Shown: positions 53,904 to 60,365 of the stretch, piece by piece
How positions within the stretch are numbered: the stretch's first letter is position 1
How the letters are laid out: the number at the start of each line of letters is the position of its first letter
From: Clostridia bacterium
GTDB taxonomy: Bacteria > Bacillota > Peptococcia > DRI-13 > UBA5745
Length of the DNA stretch: 64,000 nt
Assembly (NCBI GenBank): GCA_018436095.1
Contig: JAHDMJ010000013.1
Location: forward strand, 62,001 to 126,000
Direction: 5' to 3'
Notes under the pieces: generated by a model
What the model was told of the DNA's origin: nothing
The model's database searches: none
Seen by the model: the letters and a program-made list of their open reading frames with translations, nothing else
Translations under genes and position numbers: made by a program

Positions 53904-54000
53904 CAGTTAGCCCCGGAGTGGCGGCCAGCCCAGCAATATAATGACGGAGCGGTTCTGCAGTATTAATTAAGATAACAAGAAAAAACAGAGTCTTTTTGGG

Positions 54001-54056
54001 AAGCTTCTTTTTGCAGATAGTGTGAAAACACTGCTGCGAAAAGAAGCTTTTCTATT
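54001..54056 (+). terminator. Long terminator hairpin after the rsmD operon
   Basis: AAGCTTCTTTT pairs with AAAAGAAGCTT, continued by TGCAG/CTGCG-type pairs and an inner AGTGT-GAAA-ACACT tip, followed by TTCTATTTTGT. Confidence 0.8.
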
Positions 54057-54165: not shown

Positions 54166-54195
54166 TTGACAGAAAGACCTAAAAAACCGTATACT
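54166..54195 (+). promoter_or_regulatory. Promoter of the gltBD operon
   Basis: TTGACA (54166-54171), 18-bp spacer, TATACT (54190-54195). The predicted start point is near 54202, about 129 nt before the gltB ATG. Confidence 0.75.
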
Positions 54196-54200
54196 TCTGG

Positions 54201-54275
54201 TACAAAGGTAAATAGGGTTGTTCAAAGGCGAACAAGGGTGTTCCTGCCAAGAGGCAGGCGCATGCTTGTTTTTTT
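54201..54275 (+). promoter_or_regulatory. gltB leader: hexaloop hairpin competing with an intrinsic terminator (ANTAR-like)
   Basis: Hairpin 1: TTGTTC-AAAGGC-GAACAA (54218-54235), a 6-nt loop with A at position 1 and G at position 4. Terminator: AACAAG (54231-54236) pairs with CTTGTT (54265-54270), with an upper stem CCTGCC-AAGA-GGCAGG (54243-54258), then a run of T. The bases GAACAA are used by both, so the structures exclude each other. Loops with A1 and G4 in antiterminator hairpins are the known target of ANTAR RNA-binding regulators. The start of the leader (GGTACAAAGG) can also pair with CCTTGTACC just before the ATG. Confidence 0.65.
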
Positions 54276-54330
54276 ATTGCTTATTTTTATTGTTATGGGG
54301 CGGACGCCCATAAGAAAGGGGCCTTGTACC

Positions 54331-57300
54331 ATGGTAGAAAAGAAGGAAAGAGAAAGAATACGGCAGCAAAGCTTATATGACGCCGCATTTGAGCACGATG
54401 CCTGCGGCATTGGCGCTGTGGTAAACATCAAAGGCATTAAAACCTATCAGACCCTTGACGATGCTTTGAAGATTGTGGAAAAACTGGAGCATCGGGCAGG
54501 GTTGGATGCGGAGGGCAAGACGGGAGACGGCGTCGGCATATTGCTGCAGATATCTCATAAGTTCTTTAAAAAGGCCACGGAGAAATGTGATTTTTCTATT
54601 GGCGGAGAGCGGGATTACGGCATAGGTATGTTCTTTTTCCCTCAAGATACCCTTAAGCGCAATCAGGCCAAAAAAATGCTGGAGCTAATTGTGGAAAGGG
54701 AAGGAATGGAATTTTTGGGCTGGCGCCGGGTGCCTGTAGAGCCGGGCATACTTGGTCAAAAAGCCTTGGACAAAATGCCCTGTATTGAGCAGGCCTTTGT
54801 AAAGCGCCCGGCTAATGCAGAGAAAGGCTTGGCTTTCGACAGAAAGCTTTATGTGGTGCGCCGGATATTCGAACAATCCAACGATAATACCTATGTGCCC
54901 TCTTTTTCCAGCAGGACTATTGTATATAAGGGCATGTTCATGGTAGGGCAGCTTCGCCGTTTTTACCGGGACCTGCAGGATGAAGATTATGAGACGGCCA
55001 TTGCTACGGTGCATTCCCGTTTTTCAACAAACACTACTCCTTCCTGGCAGAGAGCCCATCCCAACCGCATTATCTGCCATAACGGTGAAATCAACACCAT
55101 CAGAGGCAATGCCGACCGGATGCTGGCCCGTGAGGAAACCATGTCCTGCCAGGTTGTGCAAAAGGAGCTGGACAAGGTATTCCCCGTTATTAATATTGAG
55201 GGTTCAGACTCTGCTATGCTTGACAACACTTTGGAGTTTCTGATGATGAGCGGCATGGAGCTTCCCCTGGCCGTGATGATCACTATTCCGGAGCCTTGGA
55301 CCCATGACGAAAATATCAGCAAAATCAAGCGGGATCTCTATCAATATTACGCAATACTTATGGAGCCCTGGGACGGCCCCGCTTCCATTCTATTCTCTGA
55401 CGGGGACAGTGTGGGGGCCGTATTGGACCGCAATGGTCTGCGGCCCTCCCGCTATTATGTAACGGACAAAGACCAGCTCATCCTTGCCTCAGAGGTGGGA
55501 GTGCTGGATATCGATCCGGCCCATATTGTGAAAAAGTCCAGGCTGCAGCCCGGAAAAATGCTGCTGGTGGATACCGTAAAGGGCCGTATTGTAGACGACA
55601 AGGAGCTTAAGGAGACTTACGCCTCGGCAAAGCCTTACGGAGAATGGCTGGATCGTTATATGGTAAGGCTCAGGGATCTGGTGATTCCCAACCGCAAGGT
55701 GGAAGTAAGCCCAAAGGAGCAGCGGATTAAGCTGCAAAAGGCCTTCGGCTACACCTATGAAGAGGTGCACCGGAGAATTTTGCCCTTGGCTAAAAACGGC
55801 TCCGAGCCTACGGCAGCCATGGGTATTGATATACCTCTTGCCGTGCTTTCCGGCCATGAGCAGCCTTTGTTTAACTACTTTAAGCAGCTTTTTGCCCAGG
55901 TAACCAATCCGCCCCTTGACGCCATCAGGGAGGAAATCGTTACCGATACCACCGTATATATCGGGGACGACGGCAACCTGCTGGAGGAAAAGCCGGAAAA
56001 CTGCCGGGTAGTCCAGATCAGAAACCCGATTTTGACCTCTGTGGACCTGATGAAAATAAAGGATATGAAGAAGCCGGGCTTCCATGTGGAAACCATATCC
56101 ATGATTTATTACAAAAACACACCCTTAAAGAGAGCCCTTGACCATTTATTTATGGCGGCAGACAGGGCTTACCGGGGCGGGGCCAATATTATAATCATGT
56201 CGGACAGGGGCGTTGACGAAAACCATCTGGCCATTCCTTCCCTGCTGGCCGTATCCGCTATGGAGCAGTACCTTGTCCGCACGAAGAAGCGTACGGCTAT
56301 ATCGATTATTCTGGAAAGCGCCGAGCCTCGGGACGTCCATCATTTTGCCACTCTTTTGGGCTACGGCGCCCGGGCCATCAACCCTTATCTTGCCCAGGAG
56401 ACCATTGGGGAGCTGATTGAGGAAGAGCTGCTGGACAAGGATTTTCATACGGCTGTAGACGACTATAACAATGCTATCCTCCATGGAATAGTCAAAATCG
56501 CTTCCAAGATGGGCGTATCCACTATCCAGTCTTACCAGTCGGCTCAGATTTTTGAGGCTATTGGTATAGATAAAGGTGTTGTGGACGAATATTTCACCAA
56601 TACCATATCCCGGGTAGGCGGTATTGGCTTAAAAGAGATCGAAACCCTGGTGGATAACAACCACACAAAAGCTTTTGATCCCCTGGGCCTGGGCGTTGAC
56701 GATACCCTGGACAGCAGGGGCCTGCACAAATCCCGGGCCGGCCAGGAAGACCACATGTACAACCCCCGGACCATCCATCTGCTTCAGGAGGCCGCCAAGC
56801 GGGGGGATTATGGGTTGTTTAAGCAATACAGCAAGCTGGTGGATGACGAGACTCTGCCCCATACCCTCCGGGGCTTGCTGGCAATGAAATATCTGGATGA
56901 GCCCATCCCTCTTGCGGAGGTGGAAAGCGTTGACTCCATTGTCAAGCGGTTTAAGACAGGAGCCATGAGCTATGGCTCCATATCCCAGGAGGCCCATGAG
57001 TGTTTGGCTGTGGCCATGAACAGCCTTGGGGCAAAGTCCAACAGCGGCGAAGGCGGAGAAATGCCGGAAAGGCTCCATTCCGATAAGTGCTCATCTATTA
57101 AGCAGGTGGCCTCGGGCCGCTTTGGAGTAACCAGCGAATATTTAGTCAGCGCCCGGGAAATTCAAATCAAAATGGCCCAGGGGGCCAAGCCCGGCGAAGG
57201 AGGCCATCTGCCCGGCAAGAAGGTCTATCCCTGGATTGCCAAAACCCGCTATTCTACTCCCGGGGTTACCTTGATATCGCCGCCGCCCCACCATGATATC

Positions 57301-58881
57301 TATTCCATTGAAGACTTGGCCCAGTTGATCTACGACCTTAAAAATGCCAACAGGTTTGCCAGAATATCCGTCAAGCTGGTTTCCGAGGCAGGGGTAGGCA
57401 CCATTGCCTCCGGCGTGGCTAAAGCCGGCGCCCAGGTGGTGCTGATCTCCGGCTATGACGGCGGTACGGGAGCGGCGCCCCAAAGCTCCATCCACCATGC
57501 GGGTCTGCCCTGGGAGCTGGGCCTGGCCGAAACTCACCAGACCCTTATCCAGAACGGCCTGCGCTCAAGGGTGGTCATCGAGACCGACGGCAAGCTGATG
57601 AGCGGCCGGGATGTAGCTATTGCCTGTATGCTGGGGGCGGAGGAATTCGGTTTTGCCACGGCTCCCCTGGTGACTATGGGCTGCGTGATGATGCGGGTAT
57701 GTGATTTGGATACCTGCCCCGTGGGGGTTGCTACCCAAAACCCGGAACTGCGCCGGCGCTTTAAGGGTAAGCCGGAATATGTGGTAAATTTTATGCGCTT
57801 TATCGCGGAAGAATTGCGGGAACATATGGCAAAGCTTGGCGTAAGGACTGTTGAGGAGCTGGTGGGCCGCAGCGATCTCCTGAAGGTACGGGAAAAGGCC
57901 GTAAATGAAAGGGCCGCTACGGTGGATATGCCCGCTATTTTACACAATCCTTACCAGGAGGCTAAGGTTAAGACCCATTTTGATAGCGCCGATATTTATG
58001 ATTTTAAACTGGAAGAGACCATGGATATGAAAGCGCTTTTAAAAGAGTTGGGAGCCGCCCTGGAAAAGGGCAAAAAAAAATCGGTGGCGGTGAAAGTGTC
58101 CAGTACGGACCGTACCCTGGGGACTATTCTGGGGTCTGATATTACCCGTTATCACGGCCAGGCATTGCCCGAGGATACCTTTACCATAAATTGCCAGGGC
58201 GGCGGCGGCCAATCCTTTGGGGCCTTTATTCCCAAAGGGCTGACCATAACGCTGGAAGGGGACAGCAACGATTATTTCGGCAAAGGCCTCTCCGGAGGAA
58301 AGCTCGCCGTATTTTCGCCAAAAACCGCAAAATATAAGGCTCATGAAAATATTATCATAGGCAATGTGGCCCTGTATGGCGCTACCTCCGGCAAGGCGTT
58401 TATAAGCGGCGTGGCCGGAGAACGGTTTGCCGTCAGAAACTCCGGCGCTTATGCCGTTGTGGAAGGCGTAGGCGACCACGGCTGCGAATACATGACCGGC
58501 GGCCGTGTGGTGGTCCTTGGCGGCACCGGCAAAAACTTTGCTGCCGGCATGTCCGGAGGAATCGCCTATGTTTGGGATGAGGACAGTACGCTGTATATGC
58601 GGGTTAATAAAGAAATGGTAAGCCTTGAACCGGTAAGGGACAAGAAGGATGTTGAAGAGATAAGGGCCATGATTGAAGAGCACGCAGCCATGACCGGATC
58701 GGTAAAGGGCAAGGAAATTCTGGCGAATTTAGATGCGAAAGCCCATTGCTTTAAGAAAATACTGCCCCACGATTACGATAAAATGCTGCGTTCCATAGCC
58801 CTTTTTGAGGAGAAGGGCCTGGATCCGGAGCAGGCGAAAATTGAAGCGTTTTATGCGAATACAAGGGGAGGGAGAGAGTAG
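54331..58881 (+). CDS. gltB: Glutamate synthase, large subunit
   Basis: 1516 aa from ATG 54331 (AGAAAGGGG upstream); a longer frame from 54166 is rejected because it starts inside the promoter. The class II glutaminase domain has the nucleophile C25 in EHDACGIG, implying removal of a 24-residue propeptide. Then come the central domain, the FMN/synthase barrel (about 860-1220) with SGYDGGTGAAPQSSIHHAGLPWE, and the [3Fe-4S] cysteines in CVMMRVCDLDTCPVG. The C-terminal GXGXG beta-helix (about 1270-1450) has GDHGCEYMTGG. It makes glutamate from glutamine and 2-oxoglutarate with GltD. Confidence 0.95.
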   Translation: MVEKKERERIRQQSLYDAAFEHDACGIGAVVNIKGIKTYQTLDDALKIVEKLEHRAGLDAEGKTGDGVGILLQISHKFFKKATEKCDFSIGGERDYGIGMFFFPQDTLKRNQAKKMLELIVEREGMEFLGWRRVPVEPGILGQKALDKMPCIEQAFVKRPANAEKGLAFDRKLYVVRRIFEQSNDNTYVPSFSSRTIVYKGMFMVGQLRRFYRDLQDEDYETAIATVHSRFSTNTTPSWQRAHPNRIICHNGEINTIRGNADRMLAREETMSCQVVQKELDKVFPVINIEGSDSAMLDNTLEFLMMSGMELPLAVMITIPEPWTHDENISKIKRDLYQYYAILMEPWDGPASILFSDGDSVGAVLDRNGLRPSRYYVTDKDQLILASEVGVLDIDPAHIVKKSRLQPGKMLLVDTVKGRIVDDKELKETYASAKPYGEWLDRYMVRLRDLVIPNRKVEVSPKEQRIKLQKAFGYTYEEVHRRILPLAKNGSEPTAAMGIDIPLAVLSGHEQPLFNYFKQLFAQVTNPPLDAIREEIVTDTTVYIGDDGNLLEEKPENCRVVQIRNPILTSVDLMKIKDMKKPGFHVETISMIYYKNTPLKRALDHLFMAADRAYRGGANIIIMSDRGVDENHLAIPSLLAVSAMEQYLVRTKKRTAISIILESAEPRDVHHFATLLGYGARAINPYLAQETIGELIEEELLDKDFHTAVDDYNNAILHGIVKIASKMGVSTIQSYQSAQIFEAIGIDKGVVDEYFTNTISRVGGIGLKEIETLVDNNHTKAFDPLGLGVDDTLDSRGLHKSRAGQEDHMYNPRTIHLLQEAAKRGDYGLFKQYSKLVDDETLPHTLRGLLAMKYLDEPIPLAEVESVDSIVKRFKTGAMSYGSISQEAHECLAVAMNSLGAKSNSGEGGEMPERLHSDKCSSIKQVASGRFGVTSEYLVSAREIQIKMAQGAKPGEGGHLPGKKVYPWIAKTRYSTPGVTLISPPPHHDIYSIEDLAQLIYDLKNANRFARISVKLVSEAGVGTIASGVAKAGAQVVLISGYDGGTGAAPQSSIHHAGLPWELGLAETHQTLIQNGLRSRVVIETDGKLMSGRDVAIACMLGAEEFGFATAPLVTMGCVMMRVCDLDTCPVGVATQNPELRRRFKGKPEYVVNFMRFIAEELREHMAKLGVRTVEELVGRSDLLKVREKAVNERAATVDMPAILHNPYQEAKVKTHFDSADIYDFKLEETMDMKALLKELGAALEKGKKKSVAVKVSSTDRTLGTILGSDITRYHGQALPEDTFTINCQGGGGQSFGAFIPKGLTITLEGDSNDYFGKGLSGGKLAVFSPKTAKYKAHENIIIGNVALYGATSGKAFISGVAGERFAVRNSGAYAVVEGVGDHGCEYMTGGRVVVLGGTGKNFAAGMSGGIAYVWDEDSTLYMRVNKEMVSLEPVRDKKDVEEIRAMIEEHAAMTGSVKGKEILANLDAKAHCFKKILPHDYDKMLRSIALFEEKGLDPEQAKIEAFYANTRGGRE

Positions 58882-58883
58882 CT

Positions 58884-60365
58884 ATGGGAAAGCCCACTGG
58901 ATTTTTGGAATATGAGCGCTGCGGTAATCCCGCCGAGGAGCCGCTGGCAAGAATCAAGCACTGGAGGGAATTTCATCCTATGCTCCCCAAGGAGCAGCGG
59001 CAAAAACAGGGAGCCCGCTGTATGGAATGCGGCGTGCCTTACTGTCAGTTTGGCATGATGCTGCTTGGGGGGGCCGTGTCCGGCTGCCCCCTGCATAATT
59101 TGATTCCCGAGTGGAATGACCTGGTGTATAACGGCAGCTTCAAACAAGCTCTAAAAAGGCTGCATAAGACCAATAATTTCCCGGAGTTCACCGGGCGGGT
59201 ATGTCCCGCTTTGTGTGAGGCGGCATGTACCTGTGGATTAAACGGCAATCCGGTAACCATCAAGGAAAATGAGCTGGGCATAGTTGAGGATGGTTTCTCA
59301 GGCGGTGCTGTAACTCCCCGGATACCGAAAGTGCGTACCGGCAAAAAGGTGGCTGTTGTGGGATCGGGGCCGGCGGGTCTGGCGGCGGCGGACCAGCTTA
59401 ACCTGAGGGGCCACAGCGTCACCGTATTTGAGCGGGAGGACCGTATAGGCGGGCTGCTGATGTATGGCATCCCCAATATGAAGCTGGAAAAAGAGATCGT
59501 AGAGCGCCGGGTCAGGCTGATGACGGCTGAAGGCGTTGAATTCCGCACCGGCGTTGACGTTGGCAAGGATATAGAGGCTAAGGAATTGCTGAAAGCCTAT
59601 GATGGGGTAATCCTGTGCTGCGGAGCCAAAAAGCCCCGGGATCTGGCCGCCAAAAACCGGGAAGTAAACGGCGTCTATTTTGCCGTGGATTTTCTGGGAG
59701 CCACTACAAAGAGCCTTTTAAACTCAGGCCTCAAGGACGGCAAGTATATAAGCGCCAAGGGCAAGCAGGTGGTGATTATTGGCGGCGGCGACACGGGCAA
59801 CGATTGCGTTGGCACTTCCATTCGCCAGGGCTGCAAGTCCGTTGTGCAAATTGAGATGATGCCGAAGCTGCCCGGCCAGCGGGGGGAAAATAATCCCTGG
59901 CCTCAGTGGCCTTTCGTCTGCAAGACTGATTATGGCCAGGAGGAAGCCATTGCGGTGTTTGGCGCAGATCCCCGTATTTACCAAACCACGGTTAAGGAAC
60001 TCATGACCGACGATGGGGGCAATGTAAAATCTATACTTACGGTATCGCTTAAACCTGAAAACAAGGACGGGAAAATGGTGATGACGGAAATCCCCGGCTC
60101 GGAAAAAACGGTTCCCTGTAATTTGCTGCTGATTGCGGCGGGCTTTCTCGGCCCCGAGGATTATGTTCCTGAATCTTTCGGCCTTTTGCGGGATGGGCGC
60201 AGCAATGTGCAAACCGCCCAAGGCAAATACAGCACGGGGGTGGATAAGGTTTTTGCTGCCGGGGATATGCGCCGGGGCCAGTCTTTGGTGGTTTGGGCTA
60301 TTGCGGAAGGCCGGCTGGCGGCCAAGGAGGTTGACGAATATCTTATGGGCTATACCAACCTGTAA
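58884..60365 (+). CDS. gltD: Glutamate synthase, small subunit
   Basis: 493 aa. N-terminal iron-sulfur domain with [12 protein letters not shown], then CPL and [15 protein letters not shown] site [19 protein letters not shown] (about 155); NAD(P)H site [15 protein letters not shown] (about 295); and a C-terminal FAD contact [19 protein letters not shown]. It supplies electrons from NADPH to GltB. It starts 2 bp after the gltB stop and ends 4 bp before the convergent LarA-family gene. Confidence 0.95.

Follow-up and report, generated by a model that had tools for sequence, protein, structure and literature searches.

A likely single-hexaloop transcription attenuator, very probably ANTAR-controlled, in the gltB leader of a Clostridia bacterium

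The window, the whole 64,000-nucleotide stretch of contig JAHDMJ010000013.1 analysed here, carries gltB (54331–58881, plus strand), encoding the large subunit of glutamate synthase, and gltD for the small subunit (58884–60365, plus strand), which is presumably in the gltB operon. At 53998–54052 an extended inverted repeat (AAGCTTCTTTTTGCAG / CTGCGAAAAGAAGCTT) runs into a T-rich stretch. It probably terminates the operon upstream, and gltBD thus appears to be a separate transcription unit. The first-pass annotation had placed a strong promoter before the gltB leader and the promoter scan agrees: a sigma-70 promoter on the plus strand, TTGACA (54166–54171), an 18-nt spacer and TATACT (54190–54195), matches the consensus at 11 of 12 positions and is the only promoter-like site between 53900 and 54340. 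Transcription would start near 54200–54203. Both the promoter and the probable gltB ribosome-binding site, AAGAAAGGG(G) at 54313–54321 (plus strand), are kept in the sister species (same-genus genome G004). Between the terminator described below and the ribosome-binding site sits a hairpin with GGA in its loop (54293–54313), which could affect translation; it is kept in G004 with one apparently compensating change and its z-scores are weak.

The leader forms a hairpin at 54218–54235 (plus strand), UUGUUC-AAAGGC-GAACAA, with a stem of 6 bp. Its hexaloop AAAGGC spans 54224–54229, so that A1 is 54224 and G4 is 54227. Folding, conservation and covariation mark this hairpin as a candidate antiterminator and we propose it as the ANTAR binding site. 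Within its 24-nt segment no other fold has a lower energy (−4.9 kcal/mol, z −2.4). Folding also located an intrinsic terminator at 54230–54275 (plus strand), with its stem at 54230–54271 and a T run at 54269–54275; its energy is −25.4 kcal/mol (z −5.7) and none of 200 shuffles was equally good. GAACAA is both the 3′ strand of the hairpin and the beginning of the terminator 5′ strand, and the two structures are therefore mutually exclusive. Energies, z-scores and exclusivity thus bear out the strand sharing that had been proposed on first reading. The best energy of the leader is −22.2 kcal/mol with the hairpin forced, against −25.9 kcal/mol for the terminator fold. When the growing transcript was folded, most intermediates contained the hairpin; once the terminator's 3′ side had emerged, the terminator won. 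In the sister species the stretch 54218–54275 is nearly identical, and promoter, hairpin and terminator are retained almost letter for letter. The window sequence does allow a pairing of the leader ends (GGTACAAAGG with CCTTGTACC), also suggested earlier, but the sister species has not conserved it.

The idea of ANTAR control requires an ANTAR protein in the genome, and a search of the host genome gave exactly one match. Its gene lies directly 3′ of glnA in the operon purA-glnA-ANTAR. The family profile matches the structures of Rv1626, EutV, AmiR and NasR, and the solved structures closest to the host protein are those of the antiterminators Rv1626 and AmiR. The protein consists of a degenerate receiver-like domain followed by the ANTAR domain. 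In the alignment, the phospho-acceptor aspartate of the receiver is replaced by C and the acidic pair DD by SG; the Response_reg score is 16 bits, under the cut-off of 30. Phosphorylation is therefore unlikely to be the signal. Nor is the canonical acidic pair present in the aligned ANTAR proteins of relatives, most of which are without the aspartate too; one, that of L126, has a normal receiver. The prediction of a NasR- or EutV-like regulator thus holds for the ANTAR protein itself and fails in its details, as the NIT domain is absent and the receiver has neither the aspartate nor the acidic pair of a phosphorylatable, EutV-type regulator. The placement of the gene in the glnA operon is most like that of NitR of Clostridium saccharobutylicum. 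From gene order only, we would guess that the signal is sensed via glutamine synthetase or a PII protein. Tandem repeats, GCGGATGT..CCGCTATCCG..AAG, occupy the interval from glnA to the ANTAR gene in both species (L002:3590–3750 and L151:5150–5340).

Four leaders of the host genome have the same hairpin–terminator layout, those of gltB, purA-glnA-ANTAR, the GSIII gene glnN and asnB. The comparison of the gltB and glnA leaders recommended in the first-pass annotation thus reveals one element before both. In the purA-glnA-ANTAR leader (L002, about 330–450) the hairpin is CAGAC-AAAGGC-GUCUG, inside a −41 kcal/mol terminator. The glnN leader (L253:2710, minus strand) is divergent from purA-glnA-ANTAR, and the next gene 3′ of glnN looks like guaA. 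The asnB leader (L252:1330, plus strand) has GUAAGC-AAAGGC-GCUUGC. All four leaders recur in G004, where the purA-glnA-ANTAR, glnN and asnB set is found at L254:3830, L254:3660 and L255:1873. In two species, accordingly, the element stands before GS as well as GOGAT genes (leaders of gltB, purA-glnA and glnN). Searching the host genome alone with the pattern CAAAGGNG plus a T-run brought up the glnN and asnB leaders; the pattern is restricted to loops starting AAAGG and the regulon list is therefore incomplete. Over five genomes, the matches to this pattern plus T-run were for the most part due to chance. The purA-glnA-ANTAR operon of G004 also contains a split archaeal-type glutamate synthase of three genes (L254:3908–4987, L151:17–3804), and an apparently broken remnant of a split glutamate synthase lies between leader and purA in the host genome (L002:450–830).

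Scanning gltB-bearing genome contigs gave 80 loci, whose upstream regions were searched. In the gltB leaders of these 80 relatives 39 A1/G4 hexaloops overlap the terminator 5′ arm; all are closed by C-G and have A at loop position 2. Two more matches with G-C closing were excluded as chance. The leaders with the element belong to Lachnospiraceae, Ruminococcaceae-type and Treponema genomes, and the A1/G4 loop, whose loss in related gltB leaders would have spoken against the first-pass reading, is thus conserved. Because these 39 had been chosen for pairing, we also took all CAANGRNG sites in the 330 nt upstream of gltB, unselected for pairing (n = 54). Stem pairs 2 to 5 form in 87, 89, 72 and 59% of them, compared with 30–41% for CAANGRNG flanks in coding-sequence controls on either strand. 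Covariation was assessed with 51 distinct hairpins from gltB, glnA, glnN, asnB and pyrG leaders, preselected for at least 3 pairs and A1/G4; paired cells make up 89%, double changes number 90, and the covariation score of 0.80 compares with 0.22 for shuffled data, none of 500 shuffles reaching it. Their consensus has the loop AANGRN and a C-G closing pair. The hairpin precedes glnN in two same-family genomes (G007 and G008), and the leader is also found on glnA-ANTAR operons of Lachnospiraceae and on glnA-ANTAR and pyrG-glnA-ANTAR operons of Treponema. Some of the glnA-ANTAR operons examined have no such leader.

An ANTAR gene is present in 30 of the 33 genomes with the leader, one of the matches being cut by a contig end. 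The three in which none was detectable are two MAGs and the complete chromosome of Treponema ruminis (L112, CP031518.1), which has two hexaloop–terminator units before gltB. In the phylum sample, the six gltB genomes without ANTAR have no hexaloop leader. Pooling gives ANTAR in 34 of 37 genomes with the leader and 33 of 42 without (Fisher p = 0.12), in the expected direction; the association is weak because most gltB genomes checked have ANTAR anyway. Co-occurrence was therefore dropped as a proof of ANTAR control.

How many hexaloops the leader uses is a separate matter. The first-pass annotation saw no clear first hairpin (P1), and the hexaloop scan and folding confirm that the window leader has neither a separate P1 nor any stable upstream hexaloop. 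Its tentative candidate at the extreme 5′ end, UACAAAGGUA, is at best a tetraloop on 3 bp and is altered in the sister species. The assignment of the hairpin as P2 of a EutV-type dual arrangement does not stand, P1 being absent from the window and from the 39 relatives: none of the 39 gltB leaders has an A1/G4 hexaloop within 30 nt upstream of the hairpin (1.8 expected by chance), and downstream there are 2, compared with 1.9 expected. In the relatives the hairpin typically begins 6–14 nt (about 9) past the −10 box, at what would be the first few transcribed bases, which leaves no room for P1. In the window it starts about 22 nt past the box, farther than in most relatives. The same kind of scan detected true dual leaders in G158, G252 and G229 of the phylum sample, with a further single-hexaloop leader in G206; the missing P1 is therefore not a blind spot of the method.

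These features can be set against the published definitions. An ANTAR target has an A1/G4 hexaloop on a stem of 3 bp or more, and here AAAGGC sits on 6 bp. Of the dual-hexaloop definition (Ramesh 2012), the terminator overlap and the genome-encoded ANTAR protein are present and the upstream P1 is absent. The EutV structure defined a minimal ANTAR site of one hexaloop, bound by an ANTAR dimer (Walshe 2022, PMC8934654); the AAAGGC hairpin has the sequence of such a site and is a candidate binding site. That work held that antitermination still uses two hexaloops in succession, left single-loop function open and urged bioinformatic and experimental work.

A classical dual-hexaloop target, in which a degenerate or overlapping P1 works with the hairpin, would agree with published ANTAR antitermination, which is dual. 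EutV antitermination requires two hexaloops (PMC3369931, PMC8934654), and the affinity of NasR for P2 by itself (about 12 μM) is some 12 times weaker than for the pair (about 1 μM; PMC7496416); both observations count against a single loop. One form of this explanation has two hairpins coexisting, linked by the AAAGGC stretch: GGUAA-AUAGGG-UUGUU at 54207–54222 and GAAC-AAGGGU-GUUC at 54230–54243, within the terminator 5′ arm (both plus strand). The sister species lends it some weight, as GAAC-AUAGGU-GUUC-AAAGGC-GAAC-AAGGGU-GUUC contains three A1/G4 six-base loops in a row that share arms, the first and third of which could coexist. In the window, however, 54207–54222 is at 0 kcal/mol and has no stable fold, its counterpart in the sister species being stronger, and 54230–54243 folds better as a tetraloop; a role for either is doubtful. 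The arms in the sister species instead give a longer stem around AAAGGC (−11.7 kcal/mol at 48 nt). None of the three other host leaders has a separate upstream partner loop and the 39 relatives have none beyond chance, while the extra loop of the glnA leader is overlapping, U-G closed and downstream. We thus regard a dual target as unlikely. A designed array of three overlapping hexaloops was considered and rejected as well: the triplet is real in the sister species, but its outer two loops become tetraloops or part of the longer stem; in gltB leaders of more distant relatives, comparable loops are no more frequent than chance predicts.

It is also rather improbable that the leader is read by a factor other than an ANTAR protein, be it a different RNA-binding protein or an aptamer for a small molecule reporting glutamine or ammonium status. 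Such a factor would account for the complete T. ruminis chromosome, with two leaders and no detectable ANTAR protein, and would fit the lack of a significant leader–ANTAR association. Against it, A1, G4, the short stem and the terminator overlap match the rules mapped for EutV and NasR (PMC3369931, PMC7496416). The ANTAR gene itself belongs to the glnA operon, whose leader carries the element, and Rfam searches of the gltB leader at gathering and relaxed thresholds matched no relevant family. To our knowledge, no known aptamer class would fit in a 16-nt hairpin. A chance hairpin beside an ordinary or constitutive terminator, with no regulation at all, is scarcely credible. A1/G4 hexaloop hairpins are common in any genome, and a loose pattern gave about 100 mostly irrelevant matches in the host genome, but chance is already contradicted by the conservation, the covariation and the recurrence before gltB, glnA, glnN and asnB.

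Taken with the ANTAR gene in the genome and the loop conserved in many gltB leaders, these results support the ANTAR-controlled attenuation put forward in the first-pass annotation, and the attenuator is very probably under such control. On sequence grounds we consider it likely that the gltB leader is a single-hexaloop transcription attenuator within an ammonium-assimilation regulon under a NitR-like ANTAR protein. From this arrangement we infer the binding of the ANTAR protein, the direction of control and the signal as follows. By default the nascent gltB leader would fold as the intrinsic terminator and RNA polymerase would stop ahead of gltB. The ANTAR protein of the glnA operon would become active, probably on nitrogen limitation, and bind the AAAGGC hexaloop as it emerges. 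The hairpin so stabilised would withhold the 5′ strand from the terminator, allowing gltBD to be transcribed. The same switch may act before purA-glnA-ANTAR, glnN and asnB; as it precedes purA-glnA-ANTAR, the regulator would act on the operon that encodes it.

The nearest known system is NitR of C. saccharobutylicum, an ANTAR protein for which induction of GS/GOGAT by antitermination on nitrogen limitation is reported (review PMC6316151; Stutz 2007 via that review). As in a NitR regulon, the ANTAR gene here lies in the glutamine synthetase operon, the targets include GS/GOGAT and antitermination is the proposed mechanism; unlike there, the proposed RNA site is a single hexaloop and the leaders extend to GSIII and asnB. 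We take the gene order in C. saccharobutylicum to be glnA-nitR-gltAB. The eut leaders of Enterococcus faecalis, read by EutV/EutW (Ramesh 2012, Walshe 2022), share the short stem, the A1/G4 hexaloop, the 3′ strand common to an intrinsic terminator and the receiver–ANTAR order of the regulator. They need two hexaloops with a short linker (5–12 nt apart; PMC3369931), whereas here one loop lies near the RNA 5′ end, and EutV is phosphorylated whereas the host protein lacks the aspartate. NasR and the nasF leader of Klebsiella oxytoca likewise combine an A1/G4 hexaloop antiterminator with nitrogen assimilation, but nitrate is sensed through a NIT domain and two hairpins are used. AmiR of Pseudomonas aeruginosa has a detectable sequence match to the host protein and a receiver-like domain that is not used for phosphorylation, as is probable for the host protein too; AmiR/AmiC differs in controlling amidase via AmiC and in a target described as a dual hairpin. 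In Desulfotomaculum reducens, glutamate synthase genes have predicted ANTAR targets (Ramesh 2012, Fig. 9), which agree in target gene and mechanism class; those targets came from a dual-hairpin covariance model that requires two loops. The actinobacterial ANTAR survey also relies on dual models (PMC8164766).

On balance we favour the view that two hexaloops are not needed, and that the gltB leader belongs to a widespread class in Clostridia and Treponema with one hexaloop close to the very 5′ end of the transcript and a dead-receiver ANTAR protein encoded with glutamine synthetase. Our search of the literature on ANTAR with gltB or glnA, mainly outside subscription papers, found no description of a single-loop leader, and novelty is thus unproven. 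A natural, recurrent single-loop class before core ammonium-assimilation genes would be test material for the two-hexaloop model, and covariance models demanding two hairpins are expected to miss it. The findings also suggest that gut Lachnospiraceae, Ruminococcaceae-type bacteria and Treponema commonly place GS/GOGAT under ANTAR control, probably in response to a signal other than phosphorylation.

Several variant leaders were observed. Upstream of gltB in L101, L111, L112 and L100, complete hexaloop–terminator units occur as tandem pairs about 45–85 nt apart, each with its own terminator. Ruminococcus-type leaders (L064:−64, L091:−68, L093:−88 and L095:−68, relative to the gltB start) have a second hairpin-like CAANGRNG site 60–80 nt past the first and 3′ of the terminator. 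A Lachnospiraceae variant, GTCGC-AANGGR-GCG, lies upstream of gltB in L053, L057, L062, L067 and L070; here the terminator takes the hairpin 5′ strand and loop, instead of loop and 3′ strand. In Clostridium paridis (L113) UAUC-AAAGGC-GAUA sits about 50 nt upstream of the gltB start, near the ribosome-binding site, in a leader without a detected terminator, which suggests translational control. A dispersed repeat, GCGGAAATAACCAAAATTGCAAGTTTAAAGTGTCCGGA, occurs at several sites of the host genome (G000 contigs C17, C28, C30 and C31).
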